Of a stretch of DNA of 39,127 nt, positions 3,695 to 34,222 are shown piece after piece; position 1 is the first letter of the stretch, and the number at the start of each line of letters is the position of its first letter. Source of the stretch: Saprospiraceae bacterium. Its GTDB lineage: Bacteria > Bacteroidota > Bacteroidia > Chitinophagales > Saprospiraceae. Location of the stretch: NCBI GenBank assembly GCA_013140975.1, contig JABFRV010000186.1:1-39127 (forward strand). The letters run 5' to 3'. Position numbers and translations under genes: made by a program. The notes under the pieces are model-generated. The model did no database searches. It was given only the letters and a program-made list of their open reading frames with translations, and was not told the origin of the DNA.

Positions 3695-5749
3695 ATGAAA
3701 AAAAAATTACTTATAATTTTAGCATTTGTTATGAGTCTAGGATTACAGGCCCAGGCTTTTAACTTTCAGGACGATATTGAATCCTATAATGTGGATGATT
3801 ATATTGGCCAGAAATCTCCAAACTGGACCGTTTGGTCTGGCGCAGCCGGAGAAGGAACTGCTGAAGATGCACTTGTCACCAATGAGGTGGCACGTTCTGG
3901 AACCAAATCAATAAGATTGGAAGCAGGAACTCCAAATATGGGTCCTCTAGATCTAGTCTTACCATTTGGAGGCGAAAGAAATGTAGGAACTTTGAAATAC
4001 AGCATGTGGCTGTATATTACAGCAGATAATTCTGCATATTTCAATTTTCAGGCTAAAGCGACTATTGGTACAACCTGGGCTTTGGACAACTACTTTGACG
4101 GAGATGGCAAGTTTAGAGCTACACTTGGATCTGCAGCAAACGGATTTCTTTGCGAATCTGATTTTGAATTTGAAAAATGGATTAAGTATGAGTTAGTTGC
4201 TAACTTAACAAATAATGAATGGGAGATATTTATTAATGATGCATCTGTAGCTAAATTTAGCAATCCAAATAATACAATTGCGTCTATTGATTTATTTCCT
4301 TTGTTTGGAACAGAAAATTCTAGCTCTTCTTCTATTTGGTATGTAGATGATGTCAAAGCTGATTTTATTCCGTACACATTTAAGAACCTTGATGCAACGA
4401 TTTCCAATGTCATAGTTAAATCGAAATTCCTTGCAGGTCAGTCAACTGATGGTGTTATTCAAATCAGAAATTTAGGCACTACAGCTATTACTGATTTAAG
4501 CTTTAGATGCGCAGTTGATAATGGTACTCCGCAGAACTTAAACTTAACAGGATTGAACTTAAATTCACTAGCTACTACGACTGCTAAAATACCGAATATA
4601 GCATACAAAACGGGTGATGCAAAAGTGAATTGTACGATTTCAAAAGTAAACTCACTTGATGATGATGATATTAATAATAATTCTAAATCAAGCAATATTA
4701 CGGGTATTGTACCAGCACCAAATAAAGTAGTAGTTGCTGAAGAAGCAACTGGTACCTGGTGTCAGTTCTGCCCAGCAGGTGCAGTTATTATGGATTCAAT
4801 GACAAAATTATATCCTAAGCATTTCATTGGAATCGCAGTACACAATAATGATCCAATGATGATTCCTTTATATAATACATGGATGGGATCCTATCCTGGT
4901 TTTGGCGGTTATCCGAATATTGTTTTTGATAGAAATCTATTGGATCAGCCTCCTTTTAGTGATGAGGTGGTATTGGATCAGGTAATTACTCCTACTCCAG
5001 TTATACTAACTAATGGAGCTAAATACAATGCGACAACCAGAGAACTTGAAGTTTCTGTTAAAGGTGATTTCGTATCAGATATTAGTGGAGATTATAGGTT
5101 TAATTTAGTACTTATTGAAAATGGAGTAAAGTTTCCTGGAACCGGATACAGACAAGTAAATGCCTATGCCGGAGGCACAAGAGGTGTTATGGGTGGTTAT
5201 GAAAGACTTCCAAATCCTGTCCCTGCAAGCAGAATGACTTACAACCATGTTGCGCGTGCAATATTTGATGATGCAGTTGGCTTGCAAGGCTACCTCCCTT
5301 CAACTATAAAGAAAAATTCAACATACTACATTACATATAGCATAACTCTGGCTGATACATTTAAAGCTGATAATATCGAATTGGTTGGATTGTTATATGG
5401 TCCAAATGGAGAAATTGTAAATGCTACAGAAACGAGTATAGCAGAAGCAGAAATAAATGGATTGTATAGCAGTGTTTCTGATCCAAGACCAACATTCAAA
5501 GCCGCTAAGGTTAGCCCTAATCCTACAAGTGAAATTGCAAATGTTGAATTGGATTTAGAGAATTCTTCATATGTAAGCTTGCAGATTCTTGACATTACAG
5601 GAAAAGAAGTTTCTTCCCGCAATTATGGTAAATTAAATGGTCATATTATTTTACCTGTAAATACTCTAGGCTTTAATAATGGTTCATACCTAATTAAGAT
5701 TAGTGTAGACGGAAAAGTTATAACTCAAAAATTAGTTGTAACTCACTAA
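3695..5749 (+). CDS. Omp28-like thioredoxin-fold surface protein with T9SS sorting domain
   Basis: This 684-residue protein starts with a clear signal peptide (MKKK, hydrophobic core, ending near LQAQA). Residues about 25-230 look like a beta-sandwich carbohydrate- or ligand-binding module. The region around residues 350-440 resembles the Omp28-related family: it contains EEATGTWCQFCP with a CxxC pair at Cys356 and Cys359, followed by a thioredoxin-like FIGIAVHNND strand. The last 75 residues (PNPT, DITGKEV, GSYLIKI) form a T9SS type A sorting domain. A thioredoxin-fold role in surface redox or metal handling is possible, but the substrate is unknown. It is a single gene, with a possible promoter just upstream and a strong terminator just downstream. 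Confidence 0.85.
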   Translation: MKKKLLIILAFVMSLGLQAQAFNFQDDIESYNVDDYIGQKSPNWTVWSGAAGEGTAEDALVTNEVARSGTKSIRLEAGTPNMGPLDLVLPFGGERNVGTLKYSMWLYITADNSAYFNFQAKATIGTTWALDNYFDGDGKFRATLGSAANGFLCESDFEFEKWIKYELVANLTNNEWEIFINDASVAKFSNPNNTIASIDLFPLFGTENSSSSSIWYVDDVKADFIPYTFKNLDATISNVIVKSKFLAGQSTDGVIQIRNLGTTAITDLSFRCAVDNGTPQNLNLTGLNLNSLATTTAKIPNIAYKTGDAKVNCTISKVNSLDDDDINNNSKSSNITGIVPAPNKVVVAEEATGTWCQFCPAGAVIMDSMTKLYPKHFIGIAVHNNDPMMIPLYNTWMGSYPGFGGYPNIVFDRNLLDQPPFSDEVVLDQVITPTPVILTNGAKYNATTRELEVSVKGDFVSDISGDYRFNLVLIENGVKFPGTGYRQVNAYAGGTRGVMGGYERLPNPVPASRMTYNHVARAIFDDAVGLQGYLPSTIKKNSTYYITYSITLADTFKADNIELVGLLYGPNGEIVNATETSIAEAEINGLYSSVSDPRPTFKAAKVSPNPTSEIANVELDLENSSYVSLQILDITGKEVSSRNYGKLNGHIILPVNTLGFNNGSYLIKISVDGKVITQKLVVTH

Positions 5750-7202: not shown

Positions 7203-7892
7203 CTATTTCTTCTTCAGAAATATTTCGCCTAATTCAGAAGTATTCAGGATCAACCAAATTAATGCTGACTTGATGTATACGAATTCAATCGCTTGAACGG
7301 AATAAATGCCATTGGTAACTTTAGTCAGTATGCTAGAAGCTCCAAAGGGCTCTAATAATTGTGCATTTGCACGCATATAAATGAGCGTAAAGATGAATTC
7401 AACGCTCAAGACAATGCCTAGAATAAGTATGGATATACCTAATTTCAACCATCGGGTCTGGTATAAAACGGAACCGGCTAACCACAGGCTAAAAAGAATA
7501 CAATAAGGCAAAAGGAGAAAATGCCAGAATGAAAAACGGTAATCACCCATATCCATTAACATAGAGACCTTACCATCGAGATTATTTGCTTTAATGTCGT
7601 CTAATAATTTCTTGGTATTTACGAAAATCAATTTTGTATCGTAATTCTTAGCCGGAGGAGAACCCTGTAAAGTGAAGGATATTTCTCCGCTTACTTTGTA
7701 GGGCTTTCCATTCAGTGCCTGTGCATACAGGCCGGTGTGCTCAAAGACATTGGTTAGATTTGAATTGATTTTATTGTGAATACTGTGGACGAGGTTCCGC
7801 CCGAGAATTGATTTCTGAAGAAGAAGCACAAATAGAAAATAGCTGCTTAACAAGACTAATACACTGAATATTATTTTTTTAGAGTCTAGCAT
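7203..7892 (-). CDS. Exosortase-associated membrane protein, copy 1 (XrtH-partner-like)
   Basis: This 229-residue integral membrane protein has an N-terminal transmembrane segment, an extracytoplasmic region of about 90 residues and three further membrane segments in the C-terminal half. It is clearly paralogous to the product of 9500-10177: both share a YAQAL(N/D)G(K/R)PxKxxGxxxFTLP/Q segment and a C-terminal EWVYIKA/EFVYIKSA motif. It lies 3 bases downstream of the exosortase gene on the same strand, so the two are almost certainly co-transcribed. The constant pairing, seen twice here, suggests a dedicated partner of the exosortase in processing or anchoring. The biochemical role is unknown. 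A partner of similar type is known for the XrtH exosortase group; assignment to it is from memory of the family and not computed. Confidence 0.75.
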   Translation of the reverse strand: MLDSKKIIFSVLVLLSSYFLFVLLLQKSILGRNLVHSIHNKINSNLTNVFEHTGLYAQALNGKPYKVSGEISFTLQGSPPAKNYDTKLIFVNTKKLLDDIKANNLDGKVSMLMDMGDYRFSFWHFLLLPYCILFSLWLAGSVLYQTRWLKLGISILILGIVLSVEFIFTLIYMRANAQLLEPFGASSILTKVTNGIYSVQAIEFVYIKSALIWLILNTSELGEIFLKKK

Positions 7893-7895
7893 GTT

Positions 7896-8369
7896 CTATT
7901 CAGAATACTTTCTTAACCAATACAAAAAATAAATCATGGCCACCAGAATGAACAACACCTGCCAAAATTCCAGATGAAAAAACTCAAACCAATCATTGGC
8001 ATAAATTCCAATGAGATAGAGACTGATAATTCTGACTATATTTAAAACAAAAACAATGCTACAGCCAAGTAATATACCTAATAACTTATTCCTTAGTGAA
8101 CCATAAGTATAGAAACCGATTGCGCTTATAAGCATAAACATTGGAGCAATGGCATCACATCCCGTTGCAATACTCATGCTAAATAACTTTCCTGACATAT
8201 TCCCCTGATATACGGTAATGCCATAACCGAACAGATTCAATATACCTGCTGAAATAAAAGAATAAAAATGCAAAGAAGGAGCAGCAAGGTATTCTATATA
8301 CCAATATGTAGTATTTAACCAATAGAAGGCTGCAAGTACGCTTAAAAATAATATCCAGAATCGGATCAT
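7896..8369 (-). CDS. Minimal exosortase/archaeosortase-family protein, copy 1 (XrtH-like)
   Basis: The 157-residue protein is almost entirely transmembrane helices. It carries the conserved exosortase residues: Cys71 in TGCDAIAP, Arg113 in NIVRIISLYLIG and His132 in FFHLEFWQ. These three residues form the proposed cysteine-transpeptidase site of the exosortase/archaeosortase superfamily. Its small size and the neighbouring IPTLxxWG-type substrates fit the XrtH class. It would recognise a C-terminal sorting signal in the inner membrane, cleave it and transfer the substrate to an unknown anchor. The ATG at 8369 starts MIRFWILF, matching MIRIWILF of the second copy. A rho-independent terminator on the same strand 55 bases upstream separates it from whatever lies upstream. 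Confidence 0.85.
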   Translation of the reverse strand: MIRFWILFLSVLAAFYWLNTTYWYIEYLAAPSLHFYSFISAGILNLFGYGITVYQGNMSGKLFSMSIATGCDAIAPMFMLISAIGFYTYGSLRNKLLGILLGCSIVFVLNIVRIISLYLIGIYANDWFEFFHLEFWQVLFILVAMIYFLYWLRKYSE

Positions 8370-8423
8370 AAGGTACGTTTGAATCTTAACTATAAAATGA
8401 TCTAGATAGCAATAAAGTTATTC

Positions 8424-8459
8424 AAAAAAAAAGCTGATAAGGAATTATCCCAATCAGCT
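8424..8459 (-). terminator. Rho-independent terminator, minus strand, upstream of exosortase copy 1
   Basis: AGCTGAT (8432-8438) pairs with ATCAGCT (8453-8459) around a 14-base loop with a small inner GG/CC pair. On the minus strand the stem is followed by a run of nine T. It lies between the minus-strand exosortase gene and a possible 35-codon frame at 8485-8592, so it either ends that transcript or acts as a leader attenuator. Confidence 0.6.
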
Positions 8460-8484
8460 ATTATCATTTGATATTCTGCACAAC

Positions 8485-8592
8485 TTAATTAATTGGGTAT
8501 GTAAAACTTTTAGAAGGTACAACTATTGCAGTTGAGCAATATCCAAGTTTGCTAATTTGGTTAGTTGGCTTCAAGATTGGTTCATACAACAT
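8485..8592 (-). CDS. Possible 35-residue small protein upstream of exosortase copy 1
   Basis: An ATG-started frame of 35 codons contains PILKPTNQIS followed by GYC and STAIVV and is followed by a terminator on the same strand. The equivalent position in the duplicated module (11542-11652, minus strand) keeps the same PILKPTNQIS words and a following YC and AI, with several silent third-base changes, but has no ATG. The peptide matches nothing I know. It could be a small gene, the 3' remnant of a larger gene, or simply part of the conserved duplicated spacer. Confidence 0.2.
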   Translation of the reverse strand: MLYEPILKPTNQISKLGYCSTAIVVPSKSFTYPIN

Positions 8593-8896
8593 CAAAGCTA
8601 TATCTATTTACTGAAATTTAGAGTATGCTTATTAACTTTCTTTTAAAGATTATTACATTATAAATAAATAGAATGTATTAAGGGTTGATTATTATAATAT
8701 TGTGTGATAAATTAAATTTATAAATTGACAAATAATAAAATCGGGTAAGCAATAAGTGGCAAGCTGTAAGCTTAGTGTAAGGACATTTTTCTAATCCAAT
8801 ATACTATCACATTTCTCTAATCCAAGAATTCTTAAGTCAGAGGTTTACAGGGCACACTTATGAACCAGAAGCACCAAATACACATCTTCATTATTT
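8545..8896. repeat. Duplicated spacer, copy A (diverged partner at about 11606-11975)
   Basis: The AT-rich spacer between the two divergent exosortase pairs shares ordered blocks with 11606-11975: gctaatttggttagttgg, ttattacattataaataaa, ggtaagcaat, aagctgtaagt/c, atttttctaatccaat and tacacatcttcat. Parts of it also hold a perfect 14-base palindrome at 8891-8904. It probably contains the promoters for the two divergent units, but I could not pick a confident TAnnTTTG element. The stretch 8900-9021 is featureless AT-rich DNA. Confidence 0.6.
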
Positions 8897-9021
8897 TAAA
8901 ATAAACAATGCCATTATTTAATAATTTATTGAAAATACAATATAGTTTTACTTACTTTGTCGGATTCTTACAATATAATCTTTTAGTCATTCACATATCA
9001 ACCATTAATTAATAACAATTT

Positions 9022-9489
9022 ATGATTCGAATCTGGATTTTGTTTATCGGCATATTAATCGCTTTACTTCTTCTTCCCAGGAGCACAACTTATCAAAATA
9101 CCGTTGAGAAACCTATTGGTGGAATTTATTCTAGCTTGGCTGCAGTAGTTCTGAATTTGTTTGGATATAATCTTGAAAAGACGGAAGATACAGAATTAAG
9201 CGGGCCACAATTCTCGATGAATGTTTCCAAAGGTTGTGATGCAGTCGCACCCATGATAATGCTTATAACTGCTATTACACTATACCCTTCTGCCAGCATA
9301 AGAAAGAAGTTTAAGGGAATCGCAATTGGGTGTGCTTTACTTTTTGCCCTAAATCTTCTTCGAATTGTCTCTCTTTATTTGATCGGTATTCATGCCAATT
9401 CTTGGTTTGATTTCTTTCATGTAGAATTCTGGCAGGCAATATTTATTTTTATTGCATTACTATATTTTGTAAACTGGATTAGAAATTAA
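9022..9489 (+). CDS. Minimal exosortase/archaeosortase-family protein, copy 2 (XrtH-like)
   Basis: This 155-residue membrane protein is paralogous to the divergent 7896-8369 gene product. The three proposed catalytic residues are Cys72 in KGCDAVAPM, Arg114 in NLLRIVSLYLIG and His133 in FFHVEFWQ. The N-terminal half differs more (LEKTEDTELSG in place of the copy 1 loop), and that loop could bear on substrate choice. It is followed 10 bases later by its membrane partner and then, after a bidirectional terminator, by a convergent gene for an IPTLxxWG-type substrate. Its proximity makes it the likelier enzyme for the two substrates at 10243 and 12137, but this is inference. Confidence 0.85.
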   Translation: MIRIWILFIGILIALLLLPRSTTYQNTVEKPIGGIYSSLAAVVLNLFGYNLEKTEDTELSGPQFSMNVSKGCDAVAPMIMLITAITLYPSASIRKKFKGIAIGCALLFALNLLRIVSLYLIGIHANSWFDFFHVEFWQAIFIFIALLYFVNWIRN

Positions 9490-9499
9490 AGGAAAAACT

Positions 9500-10177
9500 A
9501 TGCTTGGCAACAGAAAAATTAATCTTAGTTTTTTGCTTTTTATATGCTTGTATTTTCTTTCATTTTTATTATATGAAAAAACACCTGCCGGAAAAGTCTC
9601 TTTATATCTGTATCATCAGCTATGCAATTCAAGTATTACGGATTTTTTTGATGGAGCTAAAATGTATGCCCAAGCCCTTGATGGCAGACCTCATAAAATA
9701 AAAGGAAGTCTCAATTTTACTTTACCTGCTGCAAATCCTGAAAGAGACCATGATACTCGATTTACCCTTGTGTCTATTACTCCGGTTGCGAATAATTCTT
9801 TGAATAATAATCCCGCCAACACAATGGAGGTGAAATCCGGTCATGCAACTTTTTCTTTTAAATACTTTATTGCATTGCCATTTATAATATTGATTAATCT
9901 ATGGATCTCCTCATTGATATTATTCCGACCCAAAGCTATTAATGTACTGATCTCCTTTGTTAGTTTAGCAATTTGTCTAGCAATTGAATTTTACTGCTAT
10001 TTATTGTTTTTTCGCTCAGGCGCGTCGTTTTTGCCGTCCCTGAATCTGTCTTCTTTTTCTTCTAAAATAATCTCCATTATTAATTCACTTTCCGGCATTG
10101 AATGGGTGTATATCAAAGCGATTGTTTGTTATGCAGCCTTTTCATTCAGGCAGATTTCAAGAGTCATTGGAGTTTAA
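9500..10177 (+). CDS. Exosortase-associated membrane protein, copy 2
   Basis: The 225-residue partner of the upstream exosortase has one membrane segment at residues about 8-25, a polar extracytoplasmic region with MYAQALDGRPHKIKG and a FTLP stretch, then three membrane segments and a terminal GIEWVYIKA...FRQISR motif. It begins 10 bases after the exosortase stop codon and ends 4 bases before a hairpin terminator. The last 31 codons are duplicated as a remnant at 11977-12072, which shows that this gene was once part of a larger duplicated module. The role is inferred only from the strict gene pairing. Confidence 0.75.
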   Translation: MLGNRKINLSFLLFICLYFLSFLLYEKTPAGKVSLYLYHQLCNSSITDFFDGAKMYAQALDGRPHKIKGSLNFTLPAANPERDHDTRFTLVSITPVANNSLNNNPANTMEVKSGHATFSFKYFIALPFIILINLWISSLILFRPKAINVLISFVSLAICLAIEFYCYLLFFRSGASFLPSLNLSSFSSKIISIINSLSGIEWVYIKAIVCYAAFSFRQISRVIGV

Positions 10178-10180
10178 CTA

Positions 10181-10226
10181 AAAAAAAAGAGTTGACAAAT
10201 ATGTAAAACTTGCCAACTCTTTTTTA
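10181..10226. terminator. Bidirectional terminator between exosortase pair 2 and substrate A
   Basis: AAAAAAGAGTTG and CAACTCTTTTTT form a long stem with inner CAA/TTG pairing around an AT-rich loop. A-tract and T-tract on both sides let it work in both directions between the convergent genes ending at 10177 and 10243. A near-identical copy is at 12075-12117. Confidence 0.85.
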
Positions 10227-10557
10227 TATCTTATGTAAGCTGCTAATTCTTCTTTGACATTTTCCAAAGATGAATCGCATAAGCAAGTATTGGTGAATTG
10301 ATCAGGATACCCGGAACATCTGCATCTGTCAGAGAATATCCAAAGTAATTAACGAACATACTGAAGCATAAGCCTGTAACAAGCAACACTGCAACTAGGG
10401 TTTTGAAATACGTAGGAGCGTCAAATGGAATTCCGGCACCCGCAGAAACGCTGCCAAAACCCCCTAGTGACAAGCGGAAGCCTAACATATATACCATGCA
10501 GACAGATAAGAGCAACATAGAAAAAGTTATAAGACCCCATTCGCCAAGTGTAGGTAC
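10181..10557. repeat. Duplicated terminator plus sorting-cassette DNA, copy A
   Basis: About 377 bases, running from the terminator hairpin through the 104 C-terminal codons of substrate A, match 12075-12451 almost base for base with scattered, mostly silent differences. Similarity ends abruptly just before the VPTLGEWG codons, where the two proteins become unrelated. Confidence 0.85.
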
Positions 10558-11100
10558 ACCTTCCAAAGGCCCTGCTATGAAATTCCCTCCAAACCAAGAT
10601 GTTCCTGAACCTAATAAAGTAGTAGGAAAAACTAGTGTAGCGCTATTAGAATAAGCACCGCTAATCCAAGTTACATTAGGATGAAATGTTCCTGTTGAAT
10701 TAAACGCGTATGTATCACCGCCAGTTAAAAGATGCAAAGCTACAACTCTATATGTCCCGGGCTGTAAAATAACCGGGGCAATACTTACATATCTAAAAGC
10801 TCCATTCAATGTACCTCCTGTTCCAGCTGGAACTGTTCCAGTGGCAAGAAGAACTCCTGCATCCGAATAAATACCAACCGGATGACTACTGCTTAATCCA
10901 TCTGAACCTTCATCAAAAACACCAAGTGCACTTATGGATAATGCAACATTCGTTGAAAATCGCCAACCGATGGACCAATCACTATTTAAATTAATAGCTC
11001 CTATGGTCGTTAAATTTATACCTGGAGTTTGAGAGCTAACATTGCCAATGCTCCAAATTATAAAACTTAAACTAAAGATTATTTTTAATAAATTTTTCAT
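10243..11100 (-). CDS. Exported protein A with IPTLxxWG-like exosortase sorting region
   Basis: This 285-residue protein has an N-terminal signal peptide (about residues 1-23). Its exported domain (25-180) resembles the beta-sandwich found in many PEP-CTERM/exosortase substrates of other phyla: GWRFSTN, LGVFDEGSDGL, HPVGIYSDAG, TVPAGTGGTL, FRYVSI and PGTYRVVAL. At residue 182 begins VPTLGEWG, close to the IPTLxxWG sorting motif, followed by a membrane segment and GFRLSLGG. Unusually, about 70 more residues with two further hydrophobic segments (about 231-255 and 261-275) follow, ending KMSKKN. It is encoded 39 bases downstream of a small secreted protein gene and is probably co-transcribed with it. 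It is a probable substrate of the adjacent exosortase. Confidence 0.8.
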   Translation of the reverse strand: MKNLLKIIFSLSFIIWSIGNVSSQTPGINLTTIGAINLNSDWSIGWRFSTNVALSISALGVFDEGSDGLSSSHPVGIYSDAGVLLATGTVPAGTGGTLNGAFRYVSIAPVILQPGTYRVVALHLLTGGDTYAFNSTGTFHPNVTWISGAYSNSATLVFPTTLLGSGTSWFGGNFIAGPLEGVPTLGEWGLITFSMLLLSVCMVYMLGFRLSLGGFGSVSAGAGIPFDAPTYFKTLVAVLLVTGLCFSMFVNYFGYSLTDADVPGILINSPILAYAIHLWKMSKKN

Positions 11101-11139
11101 ATATTTTATTTGAAATTGAAATATAGTTAATCGATAAAT

Positions 11140-11499
11140 TTAGTTTACGGTTAAACTAATTTGAGGATTTACAAACGTATGAATAAGAGAAATACAAGGT
11201 GAACTTGGCATAATTGCTTGATTGCAATTACCTTCAAGACCATTAGTAGTTAACTCTACTGAAAAAGCTATTGCTTGTGAATAATTTCCTTCCACAATTG
11301 TGCCTTTAACACGAATGAATTTATTTTGCCCTGAAGAGTTTTCCATTTTCCAAAATAACATTGGGGCTCCATGACAAGAATAAATATCATAAGAAATCTT
11401 GATTCCGTCCCGATTATGAACTAGATTCCATGCCATGATTGGTGGCGGCGGAGTAAACGCATTATTTAATAAAAAGGCTAACAAGATGGCTAATTTCAT
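11140..11499 (-). CDS. Small secreted protein of unknown function (119 aa), upstream of substrate A
   Basis: An ATG-started frame with a short signal peptide (MKLAILLAFLLNNAFT) is followed by a proline-rich PPPP junction and a mature part of about 100 residues with four Cys residues (C44 region, GNCNQAI, SPCISL) and several beta-strand-like stretches (KFIRVKGTI, AIAFSVEL). I do not recognise the family. It lies 39 bases upstream of the exosortase substrate gene on the same strand. The second substrate gene also has a small secreted protein gene in the same position, although the two small proteins do not look alike. This suggests operon-level pairing of a small exported protein with an anchored one. 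Confidence 0.6.
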   Translation of the reverse strand: MKLAILLAFLLNNAFTPPPPIMAWNLVHNRDGIKISYDIYSCHGAPMLFWKMENSSGQNKFIRVKGTIVEGNYSQAIAFSVELTTNGLEGNCNQAIMPSSPCISLIHTFVNPQISLTVN

Positions 11500-11605
11500 A
11501 ATTTTAATTTTAGATATATTTTAATTAATAATAGGTCAATCTTAATTTATTTGGCAAGAAAGCAGAATAGAAGCTATAAGTATTGCAGAAAAGCAGTACA
11601 CAAGT

Positions 11606-11976
11606 AGGCTAATTTGGTTAGTTGGTTTCAAAATTGGTTTACTTATATATACTCATAAAGCTAATTATATTTATTGAATTCTTAAGGATACTTATTACCT
11701 TATTTTAACTGCTTATTACATTATAAATAAAGAGAATATATTAATGGTTGAATATCACAATTTTGTCTTTATAAATTAAAATTATTATTATAACATAATA
11801 TAATAAGGTAAGCAATGATCAGTAAGCTGTAAGTTTAGAGTAAGAGCATTTTTCTAATCCAATAATTCTTATGGAAGTGTTTTACAGGTCCTGCTTTTGA
11901 ACCAGCAATCCAGTCTTTTACATTCGATCCGAATGATTTGTAAAGTCAGAACCACCTAATACACATCTTCATATTT
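11606..11976. repeat. Duplicated spacer, copy B, ending at a deletion junction
   Basis: This is the diverged counterpart of 8545-8896. It runs through acacatcttcat at 11961-11972 and then joins directly to attcactttccgg, sequence that in the other module lies at 10083 onward, inside the partner membrane gene. A minus-strand stop-free stretch at 11542-11652 keeps the PILKPTNQIS words also seen at 8485-8592. No other gene is visible between 11500 and 11976. Confidence 0.6.
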
Positions 11977-12072
11977 AATTCACTTTCCGGCATTGAATGG
12001 GTTTATATCAAAGCGATTGTTTGCTATGCAGCCTTTTCATTCAGGCAGATTTCAAGAATCATTGGAGTTTAA
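11977..12072 (+). pseudogene. Remnant of an exosortase-associated membrane protein gene (last 31 codons)
   Basis: Translation of 11977-12072 gives the final 31 residues of the copy 2 partner protein with only one change (RIIGV for RVIGV) and keeps its stop codon. The rest of the gene and the exosortase gene that should precede it are missing. The left junction lies at about 11968-11978 and fits a deletion between two CATTATT words (equivalent to 8889-8895 and 10075-10081 in the intact module). Confidence 0.85.
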
Positions 12073-12074
12073 CT

Positions 12075-12117
12075 AAAAAAAAGAGTTGACAAATATGAAA
12101 ACTTGCCAACTCTTTAT
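12075..12117. terminator. Bidirectional terminator between the remnant and substrate B
   Basis: AAAAAAAAGAGTTG (12075-12088) pairs with CAACTCTTT (12106-12114) with the same inner CAA/TTG pairs as the copy at 10181-10226. It terminates the minus-strand substrate B gene, whose stop is at 12137. Confidence 0.8.
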
Positions 12118-12451
12118 TTATAACTTAGGTAAATTACTAATTCTTCTTTGACATTTTCCAAAGATGAATCGCATAAGCAAGTATTGGTGAGTTGATCAGA
12201 ATACCCGGAACATCTGCATCCGTTAGAGAATATCCAAAATAATTAACGAATATACTGAAGCATAAGCTAGTAACAAGCAACACTGCAACTAGCGTTTTGA
12301 AATATGTAGGAGCGTCAAATGGAATTCCGGCACCCGCATAAACGCTGCCAAAACCCCCTAGTGACAATCGAAAACCTAACATATATACCATGCAGACTGA
12401 TAAGAGCAACATAGAAAATGTTATAAGGCCCCATTCTCCTAGTGTTGGAAC
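12075..12451. repeat. Duplicated terminator plus sorting-cassette DNA, copy B
   Basis: This is the partner of 10181-10557. It covers the hairpin and the 104 C-terminal codons of substrate B; only about three amino acids differ between the two cassettes. Beyond 12451 the two substrate genes have no visible similarity. Confidence 0.85.
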
Positions 12452-12964
12452 TGTAGAAAGTGATGAATAACATACAGTTACGTCAACAGAATTATAGCAT
12501 GAAATTTCACCGCTATTACTAAATTCAAAACTTACAATTTGAATGTTGTTAACGCCTCCGACAGAATAACCAGGAGGATGTCCTGTATATACCGTATGCA
12601 ACGGAGTTGGGCAGGATTCATAACAAGAGCAACTAGTACCTGTGACAGTTGAAGTTCCAATTGGAAAACCATTTAAATTCCCATCTAGCGTAGCGTCACA
12701 TTGTCCAAATACCTCAAAGTACACAGAAGTAATTGGCCCTCCATAACCAGGAGGCGGAACATCTGTGAAAGGTTTTTCTTGAGAGCCTTCAGCTTCACCA
12801 AAATTGCAGCTGTAATCAAGACCTGGTTCGGGGGTGCAAATGCACTGGCCAAAATCGCCATATGTTACTGTATATGTTTTACAATTGGCTTGAGCTGAAG
12901 CATAATTAGACAATAAGCTGGTAAATGCTGCAATCAGTATTCTTAATGTAGTAAATTTTTTCAT
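12137..12964 (-). CDS. Exported protein B with the same IPTLxxWG-like sorting region
   Basis: The start is taken at the ATG at 12964 (MKKFTTLR); an upstream TTG at 12970 in frame is less likely. The 275-residue product has a signal peptide ending near NYASAQA, then a Cys-rich exported domain of about 150 residues (GQCICTPEPG, SCNFGEAEG, FGQCDATLDG, TSCSCYESCP) unrelated to protein A. The last 104 residues, starting VPTLGEWG, are nearly identical to those of protein A and include the sorting motif, a first membrane segment and two extra hydrophobic segments. It is co-directional with, and about 11 bases behind, the small secreted protein gene at 12976. It is a probable substrate of the neighbouring exosortases. 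Confidence 0.8.
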   Translation of the reverse strand: MKKFTTLRILIAAFTSLLSNYASAQANCKTYTVTYGDFGQCICTPEPGLDYSCNFGEAEGSQEKPFTDVPPPGYGGPITSVYFEVFGQCDATLDGNLNGFPIGTSTVTGTSCSCYESCPTPLHTVYTGHPPGYSVGGVNNIQIVSFEFSNSGEISCYNSVDVTVCYSSLSTVPTLGEWGLITFSMLLLSVCMVYMLGFRLSLGGFGSVYAGAGIPFDAPTYFKTLVAVLLVTSLCFSIFVNYFGYSLTDADVPGILINSPILAYAIHLWKMSKKN

Positions 12965-12975
12965 AGTCAATAAAT

Positions 12976-13302
12976 TTAACGGGCTTTAGATATATAATCA
13001 TTCCAATCTTCATTCGTCCAGGAATTTCTATTCGAACTTCTATCCAATACAAAAGTGATTTTTTTTGTATTCATGTCTACAGAATGGTGGATATACTTCC
13101 ATCGATTCCAAATTTTTTCATACGTTTTTTCCATTTGAAGTGAACTTTGGTTTGGATTTGGAATATCCATAGTGTATGAATTTTGAACAGGACCAGATTG
13201 CAGGACTAAGATTCCATTAACGCCTAAAAAGGCCTCTTGTGCTTTTACATCAGCCAAGCCAACACAAATCATTATAGCTAAAAAATAAAAGATTTTTTTC
13301 AT
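12976..13302 (-). CDS. Small secreted protein of unknown function (108 aa), upstream of substrate B
   Basis: It has a clear signal peptide (MKKIFYFLAIMICVGLADVKAQ) and a mature part of about 86 residues with a QMEKTYEKIWNRWKYIHHSVD stretch and a hydrophilic, Trp-containing C terminus (SWTNEDWNDYISKAR). No cysteines follow the signal peptide, and no family is recognised. The stop codon lies about 11 bases before the ATG of substrate B, so the two are co-transcribed. A TAACTTTG promoter element sits 58 bases upstream. The position mirrors the 119-residue protein in front of substrate A, but the sequences are unrelated. Confidence 0.65.
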   Translation of the reverse strand: MKKIFYFLAIMICVGLADVKAQEAFLGVNGILVLQSGPVQNSYTMDIPNPNQSSLQMEKTYEKIWNRWKYIHHSVDMNTKKITFVLDRSSNRNSWTNEDWNDYISKAR

Positions 13303-13988: not shown

Positions 13989-16900
13989 CTATTTTACGAC
14001 AACAATCAACTTATTAAATACATATTCTTTATCCTTATACTTTAATAAGTAATTCCCTTCAACCAAGTTTCTTAAATCCAGATTGAGATGTACGTGATTT
14101 TCAGTATTATCTATTTCAGAATAATATATAACCTTTCCGGCAATATTAACTATCTCTATTATTCCATGATATTGTTGAAGTCCATCCAGATGCAGAACAA
14201 AATTTCCATCGTTCGGATTAGGAGTAATATCAATAGATAGTTCGTCATCATAATTTGAGCCAAATTGTTCCAGGCTTGGCATATCACTTTCATCTTTAGA
14301 CAATGTATTACACTTAACCTGATTACAAGGTCCTAGATAATCGCCATGATTTAGATGGGCTTGAACCAAACTCCAGGTTACGCAAGTCGATTTGTAATTT
14401 CCAACTATATGACATACATATGCTTTATTGCTTCCACATTTCCAACTTGCAGGAAGACTGGAATAATTAGCAGGCTTGTTTTTACAATCCGGCAAACCAT
14501 TATTATCGTTGTCAATCTTATCATCTCCTCCCGCGCAAACATCACAGACATTCCCTACTCCATCACAATCAGAATCTTCCTGACCCGGATTAGCAATTGT
14601 CTTGCAATTATCTACTGAATTATCAATTCCATCACCATCTGTATCATTGCAACCTTCATCCGTTAAGCCATCGCAATCATCATCAATATTATTGTTACAA
14701 ATTTCTGCCGCAGCTTTTATACTTACAACAAACTTACATGTAGAAGTATTTCCTGAACCATCCGTAACTGTTCCATTAACAACAGCATTGCCAATTCCAA
14801 GTGTACTTCCATTTGAAGGAGTATAAACAATCGTAGGATCGGCACAATTATCAGAAGCTGAAGAAGTATACCATACTATTTTATTACAAACACCTGCATT
14901 TAATTGTATCTTCATTGTATCAGGACAGGTCAAGACAGGATCCTGAGTGTCATAAACAATTACATTAAATGTGCATGAATTACTATTACCAGCAATATCT
15001 ACTACTGTATATGTGACTACTGTTGTTCCAACATCATATCTTGAATTAGAAGTATATGGATCAAAATAAGAATAGTCTACTTGAACATTATCTGAATACG
15101 AAGTAGAATATTCAGCTTCACCAAAGCAATGGCCTTCAATTGCATCCAATTCTACATCCTCTAACGGACAGGTAGCCACTGGCGGTTCCAGATCAATCAC
15201 ATGAACATTAAAATTACAAGTTGTACTGTTTCCTGCATCATCAGTAACTGTGGAAGTTACTGCAGTTGTGCCAAATTCAAATGCAGTTCCACTTACTGGA
15301 ATAAATGTTGTTGTTACATTACTGCAATTGTCGGTTGCATTTACTGATAAATTTACAATGGCCGTGTTAGCGCCAATGTCCAATATCTTTTCAATATCAG
15401 GACAGCTAACAACCGGATCTTCTATATCATTAATTGTAACTGTGAAAGAACAAGATTTAGTATTATCACTTGCGTCAGTCGCCAATACCGTTACCGTTGT
15501 AATACCTACAATAAACTCTGTTCCACTTAATTGAGTATAACTAACATTCAATCCAGGACAGTTGTCCGATGAAGTCACAGTATAAATAACAATTGCAGAA
15601 CACTCACCTGGGTCTGCGTCTTCTACAATATTAGCAGGACAAGTGAGCGTTGGCAATATTGGTTCTTTTACCTGAATCGTAAAACTACAAGTTTTCGTAT
15701 TTCCCGATCCATCAGTTACTTTGTATGTATTTGTGGTTATTCCTGTATTGAATGTAGATCCGGAAGGTAGTCCATTCAGTTGCACTGTTGTGGAACCAGA
15801 ACAGTTATCAGTTCCAACGGGAGCAGTAAAAGTAACAGTCTTACTGCATGTATTCGGAATAGCATTTTCAATCATATTCGCTGGACAAGTAATTGCAGGT
15901 ATTTGCACATCATTGACAGTTATTGTAAAATTACAAATTGCATTATCACCACATCCATTGGTAGAAGTTACCGCAACATTTGTAACACCTTTATCAAAAA
16001 CTAAACCTGTTCCAGTACCTGCACCGGAAGAGTTAGTCGCACCTGAGAAAACATAAGTATACGTTGGAGTTGGATCTCCGGTTGCTAAAACTGAATAATT
16101 TACATTAGCCTTACAAGTATTTGTTGTTGTATTTACAGAAATATAAGAAGGGCAATCTGTAATTACCGGAGGTTCGCAACAACCATCATCAATAATACCA
16201 TCGCAATTGTCATCTATATTATTATCACAGATTTCAACTGCAGTTGTATATACAGTAATTGTAAAGGAACATGTTTTTGTATTTCCACTCGCATCCGTTA
16301 CTTTAAATGTATTTGTTGTTACTCCATTCGGAAATGCTGATCCGCTTGCAAGACCTGCAGTTTGTATTGTATTTTGTCCTGTACAATTATCTGCACCAGC
16401 AGGCGTTGCATAAGTTTCAACAGCTGTACATACTTCTGGATCATTTTCAGTTACAATGTTAGCAGGACAAGAAATAACAGGTAATTCGTTATCATTCACT
16501 GTTATTGTAAAGGAACATGTTTTTGTATTTCCACTCGCATCCGTTACTTTAAATGTATTTGTTGTTACTCCATTCGGAAATGCTGATCCGCTTGCAAGAC
16601 CTGCAGTTTGCATTGTGCTTTGACCAGAACAATTATCTGTTCCCAATGGAGAAGTATACGTTTCAACTGCTGTACACACTCCCGCATCATTGCCTGTTAC
16701 GATGTTAGAAGGACAAGTAATTGCTGGTAATTCTGAATCATTAACTGTTACAGTAAAAGAACATGTATTTGTATTTCCATTAGCATCTGTTACCTTAAAT
16801 GTATTGGCAGTAACACCTTTTGGAAATGCGGAACCACTCGCAAGTCCAGCTGTTTGTGTTGTACTTTGTCCTGAACAATTATCTGTACCCATAGGAGTAG

Positions 16901-19900
16901 AATAAGTTTCAAATGCAGTGCACACTCCCGCATCATTGCTAGTTACAATGTTAACGGGGCAAGTAATTGCTGGTAATTCAGCATCATTCACTGTTACTGT
17001 AAAAGAACATGTTTTTGTATTTCCACTTGCATCCGTTACTTTAAATGTATTTGTAGTTACTCCATTCGGAAATGCTGATCCGCTTGCAAGACCTGCAGTT
17101 CGTGTTGTGCTTTGGCCTGAACAATTATCTGTTCCGCTAGGTGTTGCATAAGTTTCAATGGCTGTGCACACTCCCGCGTCGTTAGTTGTTACGATGTTAG
17201 CTGGACAACTAATTGCTGGCAATTCATTATCATTCACCGTAACTGTAAAAGAACATGTTTTTGTATTTCCACTTGCATCCGTTACTTTAAATGTATTTGT
17301 AGTTACTCCAATCGGAAATGCTGATCCGCTTGCAAGACCTGAAGTACGAGTTGTAATTTGCCCTGTACAATTATCTGTTCCGGAAGGTGTTGTATATGTT
17401 TCGACTGCTGTACATGCTCCCACATCATTATTTGATGTGATATTAACAGGACAAGAAATTGCAGGCAATTCGTTATCATTAACTGACACTGTAAAGGAAC
17501 ATGTTTTTGTATTTCCAACTGCATCTGTTACTTTAAAGGTATTCGTCGTAATACCAATTGGAAATGCTGATCCACTTGCAAGGCCTGCTGTTCTTACTGT
17601 ACTTTGTCCGGAACAATTATCTGAACCAGAAAGTGTTGAATAAGTTTCAATTGCTGTACACACTCCTGCGTCGTTACTTGTTATGATGTTAGCGGGACAA
17701 GTAATTGCCGGCAATTCATTATCATTCACTGTAACTGTAAAGGAGCATGAATTAGTATTTCCACTTGCATCCGTTGCTGTAACAATAACTGAAGTAGTAC
17801 CCGTATTGAATGTAGATCCACTTGCCGGTGCATAAGTAATATTATCCAATTGACAATTATCTGTTGCTGTAGCACCTACTAGCGTGATTATTGCATTGCA
17901 TTGACCAGGATCAGTTCCTTGCACTATGTTAGCAGGACACGTTACTGAAGGAACTTCTGTTTCGTTGACAGTAACCGTAAAAGAACATGTCTTAGTATTT
18001 CCACTTGCATCCGTTACTGTAAAAGTATTCGTTGTTACCCCTGTCGGAAATGCTGATCCGCTTGCCAGGCCGGCAGTCCGTGTTGTACTTTGTCCTGTAC
18101 AATTATCTGTTCCGGAAGGAGCAGCATATGTTTCAACTGCTGTACAAACTCCAGGATCATTATTGGTAACAATATTAGCAGGACAAGTTATTGCTGGTAA
18201 TTCAGTATCATTCACAGTCACTGTAAATGAACATGTTTTAGTATTTCCAGCTGCATCTGTTACTTTAAAAGTATTCGTAGTAACACCTTTTGGAAATACT
18301 GATCCGCTTGCCAGGCCTGTAGTGCGTACTGTATTTTGACCTGTACAATTATCTGTTCCGCTTGGTGTAGTGTAAGTTTCAACTGCAGTACACACTCCGT
18401 TGTCATTTCCTATTACTATGTTAGCTGGACAAGTAATAATGGGTAATTCTGTATCATTCACGGTAACTGTAAAAGAACACGTGTTTGTATTTCCACTCAC
18501 ATCTGTTGCTGTAACTATAACCGTACTAGCTCCAAGACTGAACAGACTTCCACTTGCAGGCGAATAAGTTATGCCATCAACTTGACAATTATCTGTTGCA
18601 GTAGCTCCTGCAAGCGTGACATTTGCCTGACATTGACCAGTATTAGTTCCTTGCACAATGTTAGCAGGACAAGTTACTGATGGCACTTCTGTTTCATTCA
18701 CTGTTACTGTAAAGGAACATGTTTTTGTATTTCCACTTGCATCTGTTACTTTAAATGTATTTGTTGTTACGCCTGATGAAAATGCTGACCCGCTTACAAG
18801 ACCTGCAGTTTGTATTGTATTTTGTCCTGAACAATTATCAGTTCCTGAAGGTGTAGTGTACGATTCAATAGCTGTACACACGCCGGGATCATTACTAGTT
18901 ACAATGTTGGCTGGACAAGTAATTACAGGTAATTCAGTATCATTCACAGTCACTGTAAAGGAACATGTTTTCGCATTACCAGCTGCATCAGTTATTGTAA
19001 AAGTATTCGTAGTAACACCTTTTGGAAATGCTGATCCGCTTGCAAGACCTGCTGTGCGTACTGTACTTTGACCTGTACAATTATCAGTTCCAACAGGAGT
19101 AGTATACGTTTCAATTGCTGTGCATACTCCCGCATCATTGACCGTTACAATGTTCGATGGACAAGCAATTACTGGCAATTCTGTATCATTCACTGTTACG
19201 GTAAACGAACATGTTTTTGTATTTCCACTTGCATCAGTTACTGTAAAAGTATTCGTCGTAACACCTTTTGGAAATGCTGATCCGCTTGCAAGACCTGCAG
19301 TGCGTACTGTATTTTGACCTGTGCAATTATCTGTTCCAGAAGGTGTAGCGTAAGTTTCGACTGCTATACAGACTCCAGGATCATTATTAGTTACAATATT
19401 TGCTGGACAACTAATCGCCGGCAATTCATTATCTGTCACAATCACCGTAAAAGAACATGTTTTAGTATTTCCACTAGCATCCGTTACTGTAAATGTATTC
19501 GTTGTTACTCCTACCGGAAATGCTGTTCCGCTTGCAAGACCTATAGTACGTACTGTACTTTGACCTGTACAATTATCGGCTCCCACAGGAGCAACATATG
19601 TTGCAACAGCTGAGCACACTCCGACGTCATTGTTATTTGTAATATTAGCTGGACAAGTTATAACTGGTAATTCTGTATCATTCACAGTTACAGTTAACGA
19701 ACATGTTTTTGTATTACCACTTGCATCCGTTACTGTAAAAGTATTCGTAGTAATACCTATAGGAAATGCTGATCCGCTTGCAAGACCTGTAGTGCGTACT
19801 GTGCTTTGACCTGTACAATTATCAGTTCCAACAGGAGCAGTATACGTTTCAACTGCTGTGCACACTCCCGCATCATTGCCTGTTATAATGTTCGCTGGAC

Positions 19901-22900
19901 ACGTAATTACAGGCAACTCAGTATCATTCACAGTAACAGTAAACGAACAAGTTTTTGTATTTCCACTAGCATCTGTTACTGTAAAAGTATTCGTCGTAAC
20001 ACCTTTTGGAAATGCTGATCCACTTGCAAGACCTGCAGTGAGCACTGTGCTTTGACCTGTACAATTATCAGTTCCAACAGGTGTAGCATAAGTTTCGACT
20101 GCTATGCATACTCCGGCGTCATTGCCTGTTACAATGTTTACTGGACAAGTAATTACTGGTAATTCTGTATCATTCACCGTAACAGTAAACGAACATGTTT
20201 TCGTATTTCCACTTGCATCCGTTACTGTAAAAGTATTCGTAGTAACACCTATTGGAAATGCTGATCCACTAGCAAGACCTGTAGTGCGTACTGTACTTTG
20301 ACCTGTACAATTATCAGTTCCAACAGGTGTAGTATAAGTTTCAACTGCTGTACAGATTCCAGCGTCATTACCTGTTGTGATATTGGCAGGACAGGAAATT
20401 ACTGGTAATTCTGTATCAATCACTGTAGCTGTAAAGGAACATGTTTTTGTATTTCCACTTGCATCTGTTACTGTAAAAGTATTCGTAGTAACACCATTTG
20501 GAAATGCTGATCCACTAGCAAGACCTGCAGTAAGTACTGTGGTTTGACCTGTACAATTATCTGTTCCAACAGGTGTAGTATACGTTTCAATAGCAGTGCA
20601 AACACCCACATCATTGCCTGTTACGATGTTGGCAGGACAAGCAATTACTGGCAATTCTGTATCATTCACTGTAACTGTAAAAGAACAAGTTCTTGTATTC
20701 CCGTTTGTATCTGTTACTCTAAAGGTATTTGTTGTCACACCTTTTGTAAATTCTGATCCACTTGCAAGACCTGCAGTTTGGATTGTAGTTGGCCCGGGAC
20801 AGTTATCAGTACCAACAGGTGTTGTATAGCTTACAATTGCAGTACACAAACCTGAATTATTTGACATTGCGATGTTTGATGGGCAAGTTATTTGAGGAAG
20901 CTCAGTATCTGATTTAATGATTGTAATCGGTCCTGCTAAAAATCCGGTGCATCCATTGTGTGTAATGCTAAAATCCGAATACGTTCCAAAACCAAGATTA
21001 ATTAAAGTAGTAGTATTTGAGCTTATGGTTCGACTTGCGGAAGCCGCAACTCCATTCTTTTTATAATTAATTGTGTAAGTTCCATTTGGAATATTCGTAA
21101 AATTCAATACAATGCTTCCATCATTGCCGGTACAGGATTCATTCATAATCGTCCCTGATGTAATTACAATCAAAGGAGTACTATTGTAGAGATCCGAAGA
21201 CCATAATCCCCTTCCATAAGTTGCAGCATAAATTTTATTCGTTGATTTAAGAATTTCAAGTTCTTGTATTTCGACATTTGGCAACTGATCGCTAAACAAA
21301 ACCCAATCAGATAATGAATTATCTCTGTAATAAATTCCTACATCCATTCCAACATATATTCCATCCAAAGTACAGGGATCATAGACAATGCAGTTTGCAG
21401 GAATATTTGGTAAAGTTCCTGAGACATTTGTCCAAGTAGAACCCCCGTTTGTTGATTTATACACTTTCGCACCGGCTGAATAATTTTGTCTTACAGCCCA
21501 TAATGTGTTAGGATCTGTTGGATGTATTGCTATCATATTAGTATTGGATCCAGGTGAGGAAAGAGAATCCCATGTAGTTCCAGCATTTGTAGTTCTATAC
21601 AAAACATTGGATCTTCCTGCATATATAATCTGATTATTTGAAGGCGCCACATTGAGAATCGTTAAATTTCCACCAAAAATAGCTCCACTAATGTCTGTCC
21701 AACTTGTTCCATTATTAATAGATTTCCATACTTTAGTATATCCGGCATAAATAGTTGAAGAAGAAACAGGATCTAAAGAATGTGGAGTAATCCAAGAACC
21801 ATTTGGATCCCCTGGAATACTGTCCCTAATATGTCTCCAATTAATTCCTCCGTCTGTTGAGCCGTGTAACCCACCGTTTTGATATTCTCCATACATTATA
21901 TTTGATGAAGTCGGGTGTATGCTACATTCCATTCCGTCGCCACCAATTTCATCAGTCCAGGTTCCTCCTGAGCTTCTTAATTTGGTTCCATTATCCTGAA
22001 GGCCACAAATAACTTTTCCATCTGAGGCTGAAACTCCAAGTCTATACATTTGGCTGATCGTTAAATTTCCGCTTATTTCTGTCCATGTAGTTCCACCATT
22101 AGAAGTTTTATAAACTCCTCCATCATTTCCTCCAAAAAGTGTTGTTCCTCTCCATTCAAATGCATGTTTATCAGCATGAACTGCAGGTGGACCCGCTCCT
22201 GCAAACCAATGCGTATTTATTGTCCAATTCGCTCCTCCGTCAACTGATTTCCAGGTATTTACTCCACCCACAAATATTATATCTTTATTTGTAGGATCAA
22301 CGGTTGCTACCAAATCATACCATCCCTGGCCTCCTACGTCACTTCCATTTGTTTCCCAGCCTAATAAATTGGGTGAGCTAGACCTCAAAGTATATGAACT
22401 CCCACTGTTAGTACTTCTGTAAAAAGCCTTAAATCCGCTGTTTATTGAATCTGAACACAAAGCGTAAACATGTGTGTCGTCTGAAGGAGCTATTGCCAAA
22501 GCTATTCTATTGGTGCCAAGAATTGTTTGAACATTTGACCAAGTAGCTCCATTATCTGTTGATCTAAATAGCATGTTTCTCGTACAAGCATAAAAAATGT
22601 TTGTTGATCCATCAGGATTTGCTTCAATATCATAAAAATTACCTGATTGAACTGATGTCCAATTTGCTCCCCCATCTGTGGTTCTCCAAATTCCAAAAGA
22701 GCTTGCAATCATCATTGAATTCTCATTATCCGGATCAAGAATAATTTTTCTAATTACTCTAAAATTCGTTATATTCCAATTTAAACCGGTAGTTGAAAAA
22801 CTTGTTCCTCCATTAGTTGATTTTAAAACTCCGATTGAATAATTATCAAAACCATCTCCATCACCAGTCGCGATAAAAATTACATCTGGATTAGACGGCA

Positions 22901-23468: not shown

Positions 23469-23970
23469 AAATTTATATTTATTTATTTTCAATATATAGT
23501 AAAAGTTAAATAGCTTATCTAAATACCTGATTTTCAATTATTTGCTAAAACTTTTAATTTCTAAATTCATCTTTTAAGAAGCAAGACTTCTTAAAATAGA
23601 ACCAAAATTAACAATGTATTCTATTGTATAGATTACGATTTTTGATAAACTCAGATAGATGATAGAATGCTAGTTCTTTAAGAGAAAATTGAAATAATAT
23701 TATAAACTAAAAATGTAAAAAACATTAAATCAACCTCTTTGCAATTTCTTATAATGAACAGCCGGATATGCTAATGATTCGATGGCAAATGTAGCTATAC
23801 ATTAACTAATTTTGAAGGATTTTTAGTGAAAAATCAGATAAAAGGGATTATCTATTAAGAATATTTAATCGAAAGACAGACTAAATATTCAAATTCCTAA
23901 ATGTTCTTGATAGCTCATCATGAGTTTAAGCTTCTTAACAGCTAAACATGTTAGAAAACAAAGCAAACCC
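23469..23970. other. Intergenic region between the giant gene and the lipoprotein gene
   Basis: AT-rich DNA without a credible gene. It should hold the promoter of the giant gene, but no full TAnnTTTG match is seen near the start. The only distinct element is the inverted repeat at 23572-23596. Confidence 0.4.
23572..23596. repeat. Perfect 10-bp inverted repeat upstream of the giant gene
   Basis: TTTTAAGAAG and CTTCTTAAAA flank a 5-base spacer (CAAGA), about 100 bases upstream of the ATG at 23468. It could be a hairpin terminator for the lipoprotein gene ending at 23971 or a dimeric-regulator operator. The symmetry is seen directly; the function is open. Confidence 0.5.
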
Positions 23971-34196: not shown

Positions 34197-34204
34197 TATA
34201 TTTG
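34197..34204 (+). promoter_or_regulatory. -7 promoter element of the small T9SS protein gene
   Basis: TATATTTG is a full TAnnTTTG match and covers the upstream TTG at 34202, so the start is taken at the ATG at 34223, 19 bases downstream. No convincing -33 element. Confidence 0.5.
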
Positions 34205-34222
34205 ACCTTTAAAATATCGATA

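Follow-up and report, generated by a model that had tools for sequence, protein, structure and literature searches.

We analyzed a window comprising the whole of a 39,127-nucleotide contig (JABFRV010000186.1, contig C40 in our analysis) from the 3.97-Mb genome of a Saprospiraceae bacterium (GCA_013140975.1, listed as 100% complete), which encodes two exosortases, two partner membrane proteins, and two putative substrates with a shared C-terminal extension that we term the tail. Exosortase a (7896-8369, minus strand, 157 aa) and partner a (7203-7892, minus strand, 229 aa) lie back to back with exosortase b (9022-9489, plus strand, 155 aa, 49% identical to exosortase a) and partner b (9500-10177, plus strand, 225 aa). 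These open reading frames bear out the two divergent pairs of exosortase and membrane protein genes described in a sequence-only reading of this window, which was made by a model without database searches and which our analysis follows up.

Both enzymes scored above the cut-off (25.7 bits) of the Pfam model Exosortase_EpsH (PF09721), with 34.7 bits for enzyme a and 33.2 bits for enzyme b, and both were also above the cut-off of TIGR04178. The best NCBIfam model for each was XrtH (TIGR04177), the subfamily that the sequence-only reading had singled out for a profile search, with 84.2 bits for enzyme a and 71.8 bits for enzyme b; both fall below the 86 bits required for membership by score, XrtH nonetheless being the best model, and this cut-off is exceeded in 3 of the 149 genomes of the order that we searched. 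Residues Cys71, Arg113, and His132 (enzyme a numbering), which we take to be the catalytic residues of the exosortase superfamily, are invariant in 28 aligned sequences including the two from the window, in agreement with the exosortase identity proposed from the sequence. The description of these enzymes as miniature does not hold, since the XrtH model has 158 positions and 155-157 aa is an ordinary size.

Substrate 1 (10243-11100, minus strand) contains an N-terminal signal-like segment, a DUF4082 domain, the motif VPTLGEWG (10534-10557, minus strand), which is the predicted XrtH recognition site, and three predicted membrane helices, with PF13313 and PF18203 both over cut-off. Substrate 2 (12137-12970, minus strand) also has an N-terminal signal-like segment, followed by a passenger region in which no Pfam domain was found (the IPTL motif being the sole Pfam match of this protein), VPTLGEWG (12428-12451, minus strand), and a near-identical tail. 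The presence of an IPTLxxWG-like motif in two proteins beside the enzymes, as first read from the sequence, was confirmed with PF18203 (IPTL-CTERM; 24.1 and 23.3 bits, cut-off 20.8); the corresponding NCBIfam model, TIGR04174, was not reached (18.3 and 17.7 bits, cut-off 20.5). Both proteins carry the PTLxxWG sequence and the membrane helix of an IPTL-CTERM domain; the extreme C-terminal location of such a domain is absent, and the motif is not the C-terminal signal it had been taken for, as 96 residues lie beyond it. An AlphaFold 2 model of the C-terminal 134 residues of substrate 1 (mean pLDDT 72) has helices at residues 34-61, 77-102, and 107-133, the last two of which make up the tail. The fused tail is located at 10246-10434 in substrate 1 (minus strand; 80.9 bits to our tail profile A8, which contains this tail) and at 12140-12328 in substrate 2 (minus strand); over their last 105 residues the two substrates share 97% identity. 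Taken together, the enzymes, partners, and IPTL-type substrates of the window are a predicted XrtH-class exosortase system.

This system is larger than the two enzymes with two substrates of their own that the sequence-only reading had envisaged: genome-wide, we identified five exosortases and seven IPTL substrates. All seven substrates have a tail, with four of these tails fused to the substrate (two in C40, and one each in C80 and C182) and three encoded by separate open reading frames of 63-73 aa downstream of the substrate (in C12, C123, and C26). The seven substrates were found by profile search and are also among the 32 matches to a loose DNA motif pattern in the whole genome (19 matches for the reversed pattern), a genome-wide search of the kind suggested from the sequence. 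We read 20 of the other pattern matches for hidden IPTL substrates, and none of them has a sorting-type helix in a secreted protein; a further one, in C56, was rejected because we judged it by reading to lie within an alpha/beta-hydrolase-like open reading frame, and the matches in C30:60, C153, C177, and C190 were outside the set read.

Comparison with loci from other genomes showed that the tail is a two-helix hairpin of approximately 60 residues with a D-[IL]-x-[GC] turn (D-x-x-G in substrate 1), which follows the motif and first membrane helix and is either fused to the substrate or encoded by a separate gene. After merging loci fetched by two routes, 50 distinct tails remained, 26 fused and 24 split; locus L060, where the tail is cut by the contig end, was left out of this count, and L158 was assigned by hand as fused. 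In these 50 tails, the turn Asp is conserved in 47, the Gly/Cys in 50, a Tyr in 45, and a His in 36. The inter-helix loop of the 24 split tails contains 46 acidic (D+E) and 11 basic (K+R) residues, and by the positive-inside rule such an acidic turn would be periplasmic, i.e., on the same side as the motif. From knowledge of the family, the exosortase active site is presumably on the periplasmic side as well. Searches of NCBIfam and Pfam with the 24 free tails gave chance-like matches at best (E values of 0.005 and 0.009), and searches of PDB sequences with the enzyme and tail profiles gave no match and one chance-level match. Each of the 26 fused C-termini is matched at E ≤ 0.1 by the NCBIfam model NF033207 (midcut-by-XrtH) and by the IPTL-CTERM models; the alignments shown cover the surroundings of the motif and do not reach the cut-off of NF033207. 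We considered NF033207 as the family for the tail and rejected it, since its matches end near the motif, and we found the tail hairpin to be outside the coverage of any NCBIfam or Pfam model.

The tail closely follows strong matches to XrtH. We defined a strong match as a best TIGR04177 E value of ≤ 2.1e-17, and in the 149 genomes of the order a tail was present in 16 of 16 genomes with such a match and in none of the 133 others at E ≤ 1e-6 (exact p = 8e-22); 13 of these 133 have weaker TIGR04177 matches, and two have marginal tail matches with E values of about 3e-4. At E ≤ 1e-8, TIGR04177 is matched in 29 of the 149 genomes. Among 25 loci outside the window's own genome with an enzyme at E ≤ 1.3e-15 (L060-L084), 24 have the partner and 20 have a tail. 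The 14 weaker loci that served as controls (L085-L098), most of which belong to other exosortase lineages on the tree, have neither, and no motif apart from two loose look-alikes (APALPLWA in L094 and IPALALFG in L095), which were not counted as substrates. A scan of named genomes yielded 42 loci, mainly from Saprospiraceae, Chitinophagales, other Bacteroidetes, and Planctomycetota, and in part overlapping L060-L084; 40 of these have the partner (approximately 2 kb off in L153). In addition, a tail is present in five of five planctomycete genomes reached via enzymes like those of the window, and a sample of 392 Bacteroidota genomes, in which scoring covered the best 16 candidates of each genome, contained tails in three genomes, all of the window's family. 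The enzyme, partner, and IPTL-type substrates are found together in related genomes, as the sequence-only reading had expected. These counts are to be read with the way our profiles were made, as the motif profile (A9) and the tail profile (A8) were built partly from genomes that were later counted. One set of substrates stands apart by its motif: in the Saprospiraceae genome OFTM40 (L121), substrates with IPAMGEWG are encoded near two exosortase-partner pairs; this motif also gives a score with VPAMP-CTERM, at 20 bits below the cut-off of 32, and is perhaps a link between two signal families.

The way in which tails are distributed over substrates separates the genomes into two regimes. We searched 30 genomes chosen for their XrtH loci (or, in the case of G008, as a control) using separate profiles for tails (E ≤ 0.01) and substrates (E ≤ 0.1). 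In 12 of these genomes, substrates come with tails of their own, with tail-to-substrate ratios of 7:7, 3:4, 1:1 (four genomes), 3:3, 2:2, 10:10, 4:4, 8:8, and 6:3, and the tail is encoded within 400 bp downstream in all 42 of the substrates listed (45 counted). In nine genomes, a single tail is present together with 4, 16, 10, 15, 7, 3, 6, 31, or 28 substrates, and in all nine this tail is a separate open reading frame with no motif in frame. It is located directly before xrtH on the same strand in five of them (G026; G039 from Portibacter lacus, with 16 substrates counted; G131; G154; and G156), beside the cluster in another orientation in two (G155 and G161), and elsewhere in two (G157 and G159). 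Of the remaining nine genomes, two are mixed, five have substrates and no detected tail, and two have neither. We read 40 substrates, 35 from seven single-tail genomes and five from the two mixed ones; in all of these, 33-46 residues separate the start of the motif region from the end of the protein, and no tail is present behind any of them in the 1.7-1.8 kb read.

Movement of the tail between these states has occurred repeatedly, with at least seven switches between fused and split on a tree of 91 exosortases (46 of them labelled by state). For example, L023/L066 and L129/L153 are supported sister pairs with opposite states, and the C12 enzyme of the genome studied here, beside a separate tail, is sister to the enzyme of locus L066 from a congener, where the tail is fused. 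Between G000 and its congener G086 there are three orthologue pairs, which are the same for the tail, the enzyme, and the partner, and tail distances correlate with enzyme distances over 43 loci (Mantel r 0.67, reached in 0 of 5000 permutations), a correlation to which shared ancestry contributes. This combination of conserved sequence and repeated fusion and fission suggests that the tail is a conserved, detachable component of the XrtH system that has been overlooked so far.

The partner proteins are also characteristic of XrtH loci. Neither partner a nor partner b matched any NCBIfam model (E ≤ 1) or any Pfam model, and seven of 63 aligned members of their family matched NF041730, the exosortase H-associated membrane protein (best E value 2.9e-8). 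Using a profile iterated on the same loci, we found homologues of the partner at most XrtH loci and at none of 14 loci of other exosortases; in a sample of Planctomycetota, seven of 16 XrtH loci have the partner in short flanks. An AlphaFold 2 model of partner a (mean pLDDT 94) consists of membrane helices around a small strand domain, for which Foldseek returned no PDB chain at E ≤ 0.001 and the top VIA-align rows (Z ≤ 5.0) were uninformative. A comparison of profiles aligned the partner family (alignment A10) with the exosortase family over 145 columns (96.7% probability, E value 4.6e-10), the XrtH model is weakly matched by nine of the 63 partners (best E value 1.2e-5), and the GCD motif of the enzyme has no counterpart in the partner alignment. 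The partner may be a catalytically dead, distant relative of the exosortases, with the caveat that both families consist of membrane proteins, whose composition is biased.

The two window substrates owe their similar ends to a recent local duplication. A block of approximately 480 bp at 10070-10551 has a second copy at 11965-12445 with 93% identity; it reaches from the 3' part of partner gene b across a terminator-like hairpin and the tail as far as the motif. Similarity between the two substrate genes sets in at the Val of VPTLGEWG and continues beyond the stop codons as far as the 3' end of partner gene b, a remnant of which adjoins substrate 2 at 11944-12069 and gives evidence on the direction of copying; the sequence that precedes exosortase b (8484-8868) recurs as an older copy at 11541-11905 (plus strand, 75-80% identity, repeat families D2, D4, and D5). 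The hairpin in the gap between partner b and substrate 1 (10183-10225, minus strand) has an 18-pair stem followed by a T run, and its region contains five terminator-like sites where 3.4 are expected from shuffled sequence. Over the motif, first membrane helix, and tail (the last ~105 residues) the two substrates are 97% identical, and their tail regions differ at 18 codons synonymously and at four non-synonymously. Most likely, substrate 2 arose by duplication of the region containing enzyme b, partner b, and the substrate, with subsequent loss of the enzyme genes and a change of passenger. In both the window (11140-11499, minus strand, 119 aa) and locus L023 (1455-1829, plus strand, 124 aa), a DUF4082 IPTL substrate is immediately preceded by a small open reading frame, which looks similar at the two sites on visual inspection and gave no confident match in databases; small frame and substrate seem to travel together.

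This history bears on the proposal of the sequence-only reading that each of the two enzymes is tuned to one neighbouring substrate. The arrangement itself, with two enzymes and two substrates side by side, invites such a proposal, which we regard as scarcely credible. The enzymes, at 49% identity, separated long ago and the substrate ends are almost identical, so that the enzyme and substrate duplications were separate events; since one copied signal cassette is present in both substrates, the enzymes meet a near-equal signal and the locus provides no test of tuning. Either window enzyme should, judging from these sequences, see both substrates about equally, and the presence of five enzymes and seven substrates genome-wide also argues against one-to-one pairing.

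We think it rather probable that the tail acts as a substrate-presenting or activating subunit of XrtH, in cis or in trans. In the mechanism that we propose, the substrate would be exported by Sec and arrested in the inner membrane by the helix that follows VPTLGEWG, and XrtH would cut it on the periplasmic side, in or close to the motif. With both of its ends in the cytoplasm (N-in/C-in), the tail would have its acidic turn on the side of the membrane where the motif and the active site lie. In trans, it would reside with the enzyme and serve many substrates; in cis, it would be delivered by each substrate and released by the cut, and the two products of cutting a fused substrate would largely correspond to what the split genomes encode as two genes. 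A broader proposal, to which we give even chances, is that the XrtH of one lineage (Saprospirales, Chitinophagales, and some Planctomycetota) needs an undescribed two-helix adaptor, either reusable or single-use, which together with the partner makes up a three-part membrane machine.

The same observations can be read in other ways. The tail could be a retention or stability module of the precursor, in which the extra helices hold the uncut substrate in the inner membrane or shield its sorting helix until cutting by XrtH, with the split form acting as a small substrate chaperone. Fusion of the tail in many genomes fits this explanation, as does the TAATG overlap of the substrate stop and split-tail start in C12 and G080, together with a terminator-like site between the tail and xrtH in C12 (three found, 0.2 expected). 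Against a module of this kind stand the nine genomes in which one free tail is found with 3-31 substrates, a tail that seven of these genomes encode within or next to the XrtH cluster. Neither G039 nor G131 has a substrate alongside the tail and xrtH, and in L071 (three sites found, 0.6 expected) and L078 (one found, 1.0 expected) a terminator-like site parts the substrate from the tail, so that the tail would go with XrtH. We consider this explanation unlikely. Alternatively, the tail could take part in the chemistry or in acceptor handling, with the acidic turn and the conserved Tyr and His binding a lipid or sugar acceptor to which XrtH would transfer the cut substrate; in favour of this are the conservation of the turn (Asp 47/50, Gly/Cys 50/50), of the Tyr (45/50), and of the His (36/50), and the predicted periplasmic placement of the turn by charge bias. 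The turn Asp is replaced by Asn in three of the 50 tails, XrtH systems that lack a tail exist, and no informative match to the tail was found in NCBIfam, Pfam, or PDB sequences, all of which make such a role quite improbable. Finally, this could be an ordinary XrtH/IPTL-CTERM system with a functionless C-terminal extension, as many IPTL proteins and some XrtH systems have no tail; against this stand the complete association among the genomes of the order that we sampled, the preservation of the sequence through repeated fusions and splits, the occurrence of the tail as a gene of its own ahead of xrtH, and the mostly synonymous changes between the window copies, and we hold it to be very improbable.

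Several of our observations weigh against a tail that presents substrates to, or activates, XrtH. The replacement of the turn Asp noted above is one; in addition, the invariant Asp alone provides approximately half of the acidic residues of the turn, and the charge rule is weak at the ends of the split tails (49 acidic and 56 basic residues at the N-terminus, 27 and 26 at the C-terminus). In Planctomycetota, where the best 16-18 candidates per genome were scored, XrtH is present at E ≤ 1e-11 in 12 of 342 genomes (six over the cut-off), and the tail was detected in the query centre only. Five Bacteroidota genomes (two Bacteroidales and three unplaced) contain XrtH, the partner, and 2-9 substrates with no tail detected, and a scan of small open reading frames at 17 tail-less XrtH loci (nine with flanks of approximately 1.5 kb) found no hairpin gene with the turn motif; one hairpin gene, in L165, does not resemble the tail. 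Genome G158 (locus L134) contains XrtH and the partner, with neither the IPTL motif nor the tail detected in the genome; its substrate signal may differ. The tail profiles were trained on tails beside XrtH, so that the association is partly by construction, with many counted tails, e.g., those of G036, outside the training set. The two regimes are also not clean: G086 has four substrates and three tails, the tails of G066 outnumber its substrates (with three at contig ends or partial), and of the two mixed genomes G036 has one free and one fused tail with 36 substrates, and G001, with 26 substrates, has one fused tail, one in a 190-aa protein without a recognized motif, and a third match that is spurious. 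That 190-residue frame (L232, 788-1357, G001:C86) opens with a signal-like segment, continues with an acidic region and a VPTKFQW-like remnant, and closes with a helix and the tail; it is perhaps a dedicated tail carrier. The exosortase tree was made by a quick method and leaves 42 of its 88 inner forks open, and cleavage by XrtH in this organism is presumed by analogy with the family.

Compared with the described XrtH/IPTL-CTERM system (TIGR04177, with TIGR04174 and PF18203), the window shares the enzyme length, the Cys, Arg, and His residues, the best-scoring family, and the motif followed by a membrane helix, and differs in that its enzymes are under the cut-off and its substrates continue with two extra helices. 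NF033207 describes a mid-protein IPTL-type motif with a long C-terminal part (motif at about 31-57 of 175 profile positions), an arrangement, read from the model name and length, that both window substrates also have; in contrast, its matches stop around the motif (profile positions ≤ 89 of 175), and neither its name nor its matches include a free-standing tail. Its cut-off of 45 bits was not reached by the window substrates (13.5 and 21.7 bits) or by the best match in 17 genomes (33.9 bits). NF041730 shares with our partners the position near XrtH and the membrane character, and the Saprospiraceae partners are far diverged from it. A tail of this kind is not described in the accessible exosortase literature (titles and abstracts), and as subscription papers were mostly outside our search an earlier description is possible; almost no accessible literature deals with XrtH/IPTL-CTERM, and the terms "exosortase H" and "midcut-by-XrtH" are absent from it.

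The sequence-only reading also pointed to two surface sorting systems in one cell, and XrtH-type enzymes and cargo of the type IX secretion system (T9SS) are indeed encoded together here. It counted four T9SS-sorted proteins in the window; among the 24 window proteins that we scanned, two (3695-5749 and 13989-23537) exceed the TIGR04183 cut-off of 23, a third (34202-35182) is just under it at 21.6, and no fourth was found. The protein encoded at 13989-23537 (minus strand) is 3182 aa long, contains numerous repeats that resemble one another, and has a sorting domain of T9SS type A (27.5 bits). The co-existence of an exosortase with T9SS was already known from Flavobacterium johnsoniae, which, according to the accessible part of the published study, has T9SS, XrtF, and the XrtF-associated protein Fjoh_1449, and in which mutants lacking xrtF or T9SS genes were made, with the deletions impairing surface colonization and biofilm formation (PMC10936215). 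The likeness lies in an exosortase with a dedicated associated protein in a T9SS-bearing member of the Bacteroidota; the difference is the enzyme class, XrtF, and the accessible part of that study does not mention IPTL substrates or a tail hairpin (PMC10936215). Elsewhere in the genome studied here, locus L024 (contig C26, 2411-9259) encodes a VPTMTQWG substrate with a split tail, a 1110-aa protein, and an exosortase with its partner; this exosortase fits XrtX and XrtH alike (71.7 and 70.3 bits), and related enzymes and VPTMTQWG substrates are present in G086, G110, G119, and G140 of the genus.

To our knowledge, how exosortases recognize their targets is largely an open question. The natural fusions and splits identified here, of which there are at least seven, provide ready-made controls, in which one kind of hairpin can be compared in cis and in trans, even among members of a single genus, and with tail-less XrtH relatives, so that what an exosortase needs beyond the motif, the helix, and the enzyme becomes directly testable. 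Our findings also serve as a warning for annotation, in that IPTL-type signals need not be terminal and very small open reading frames beside XrtH can be genes. If the tail is such an adaptor, a single sorting system would, through repeated fusion and fission, have come to run on two economies, one in which the adaptor is owned by the enzyme and one in which it is carried by the cargo.

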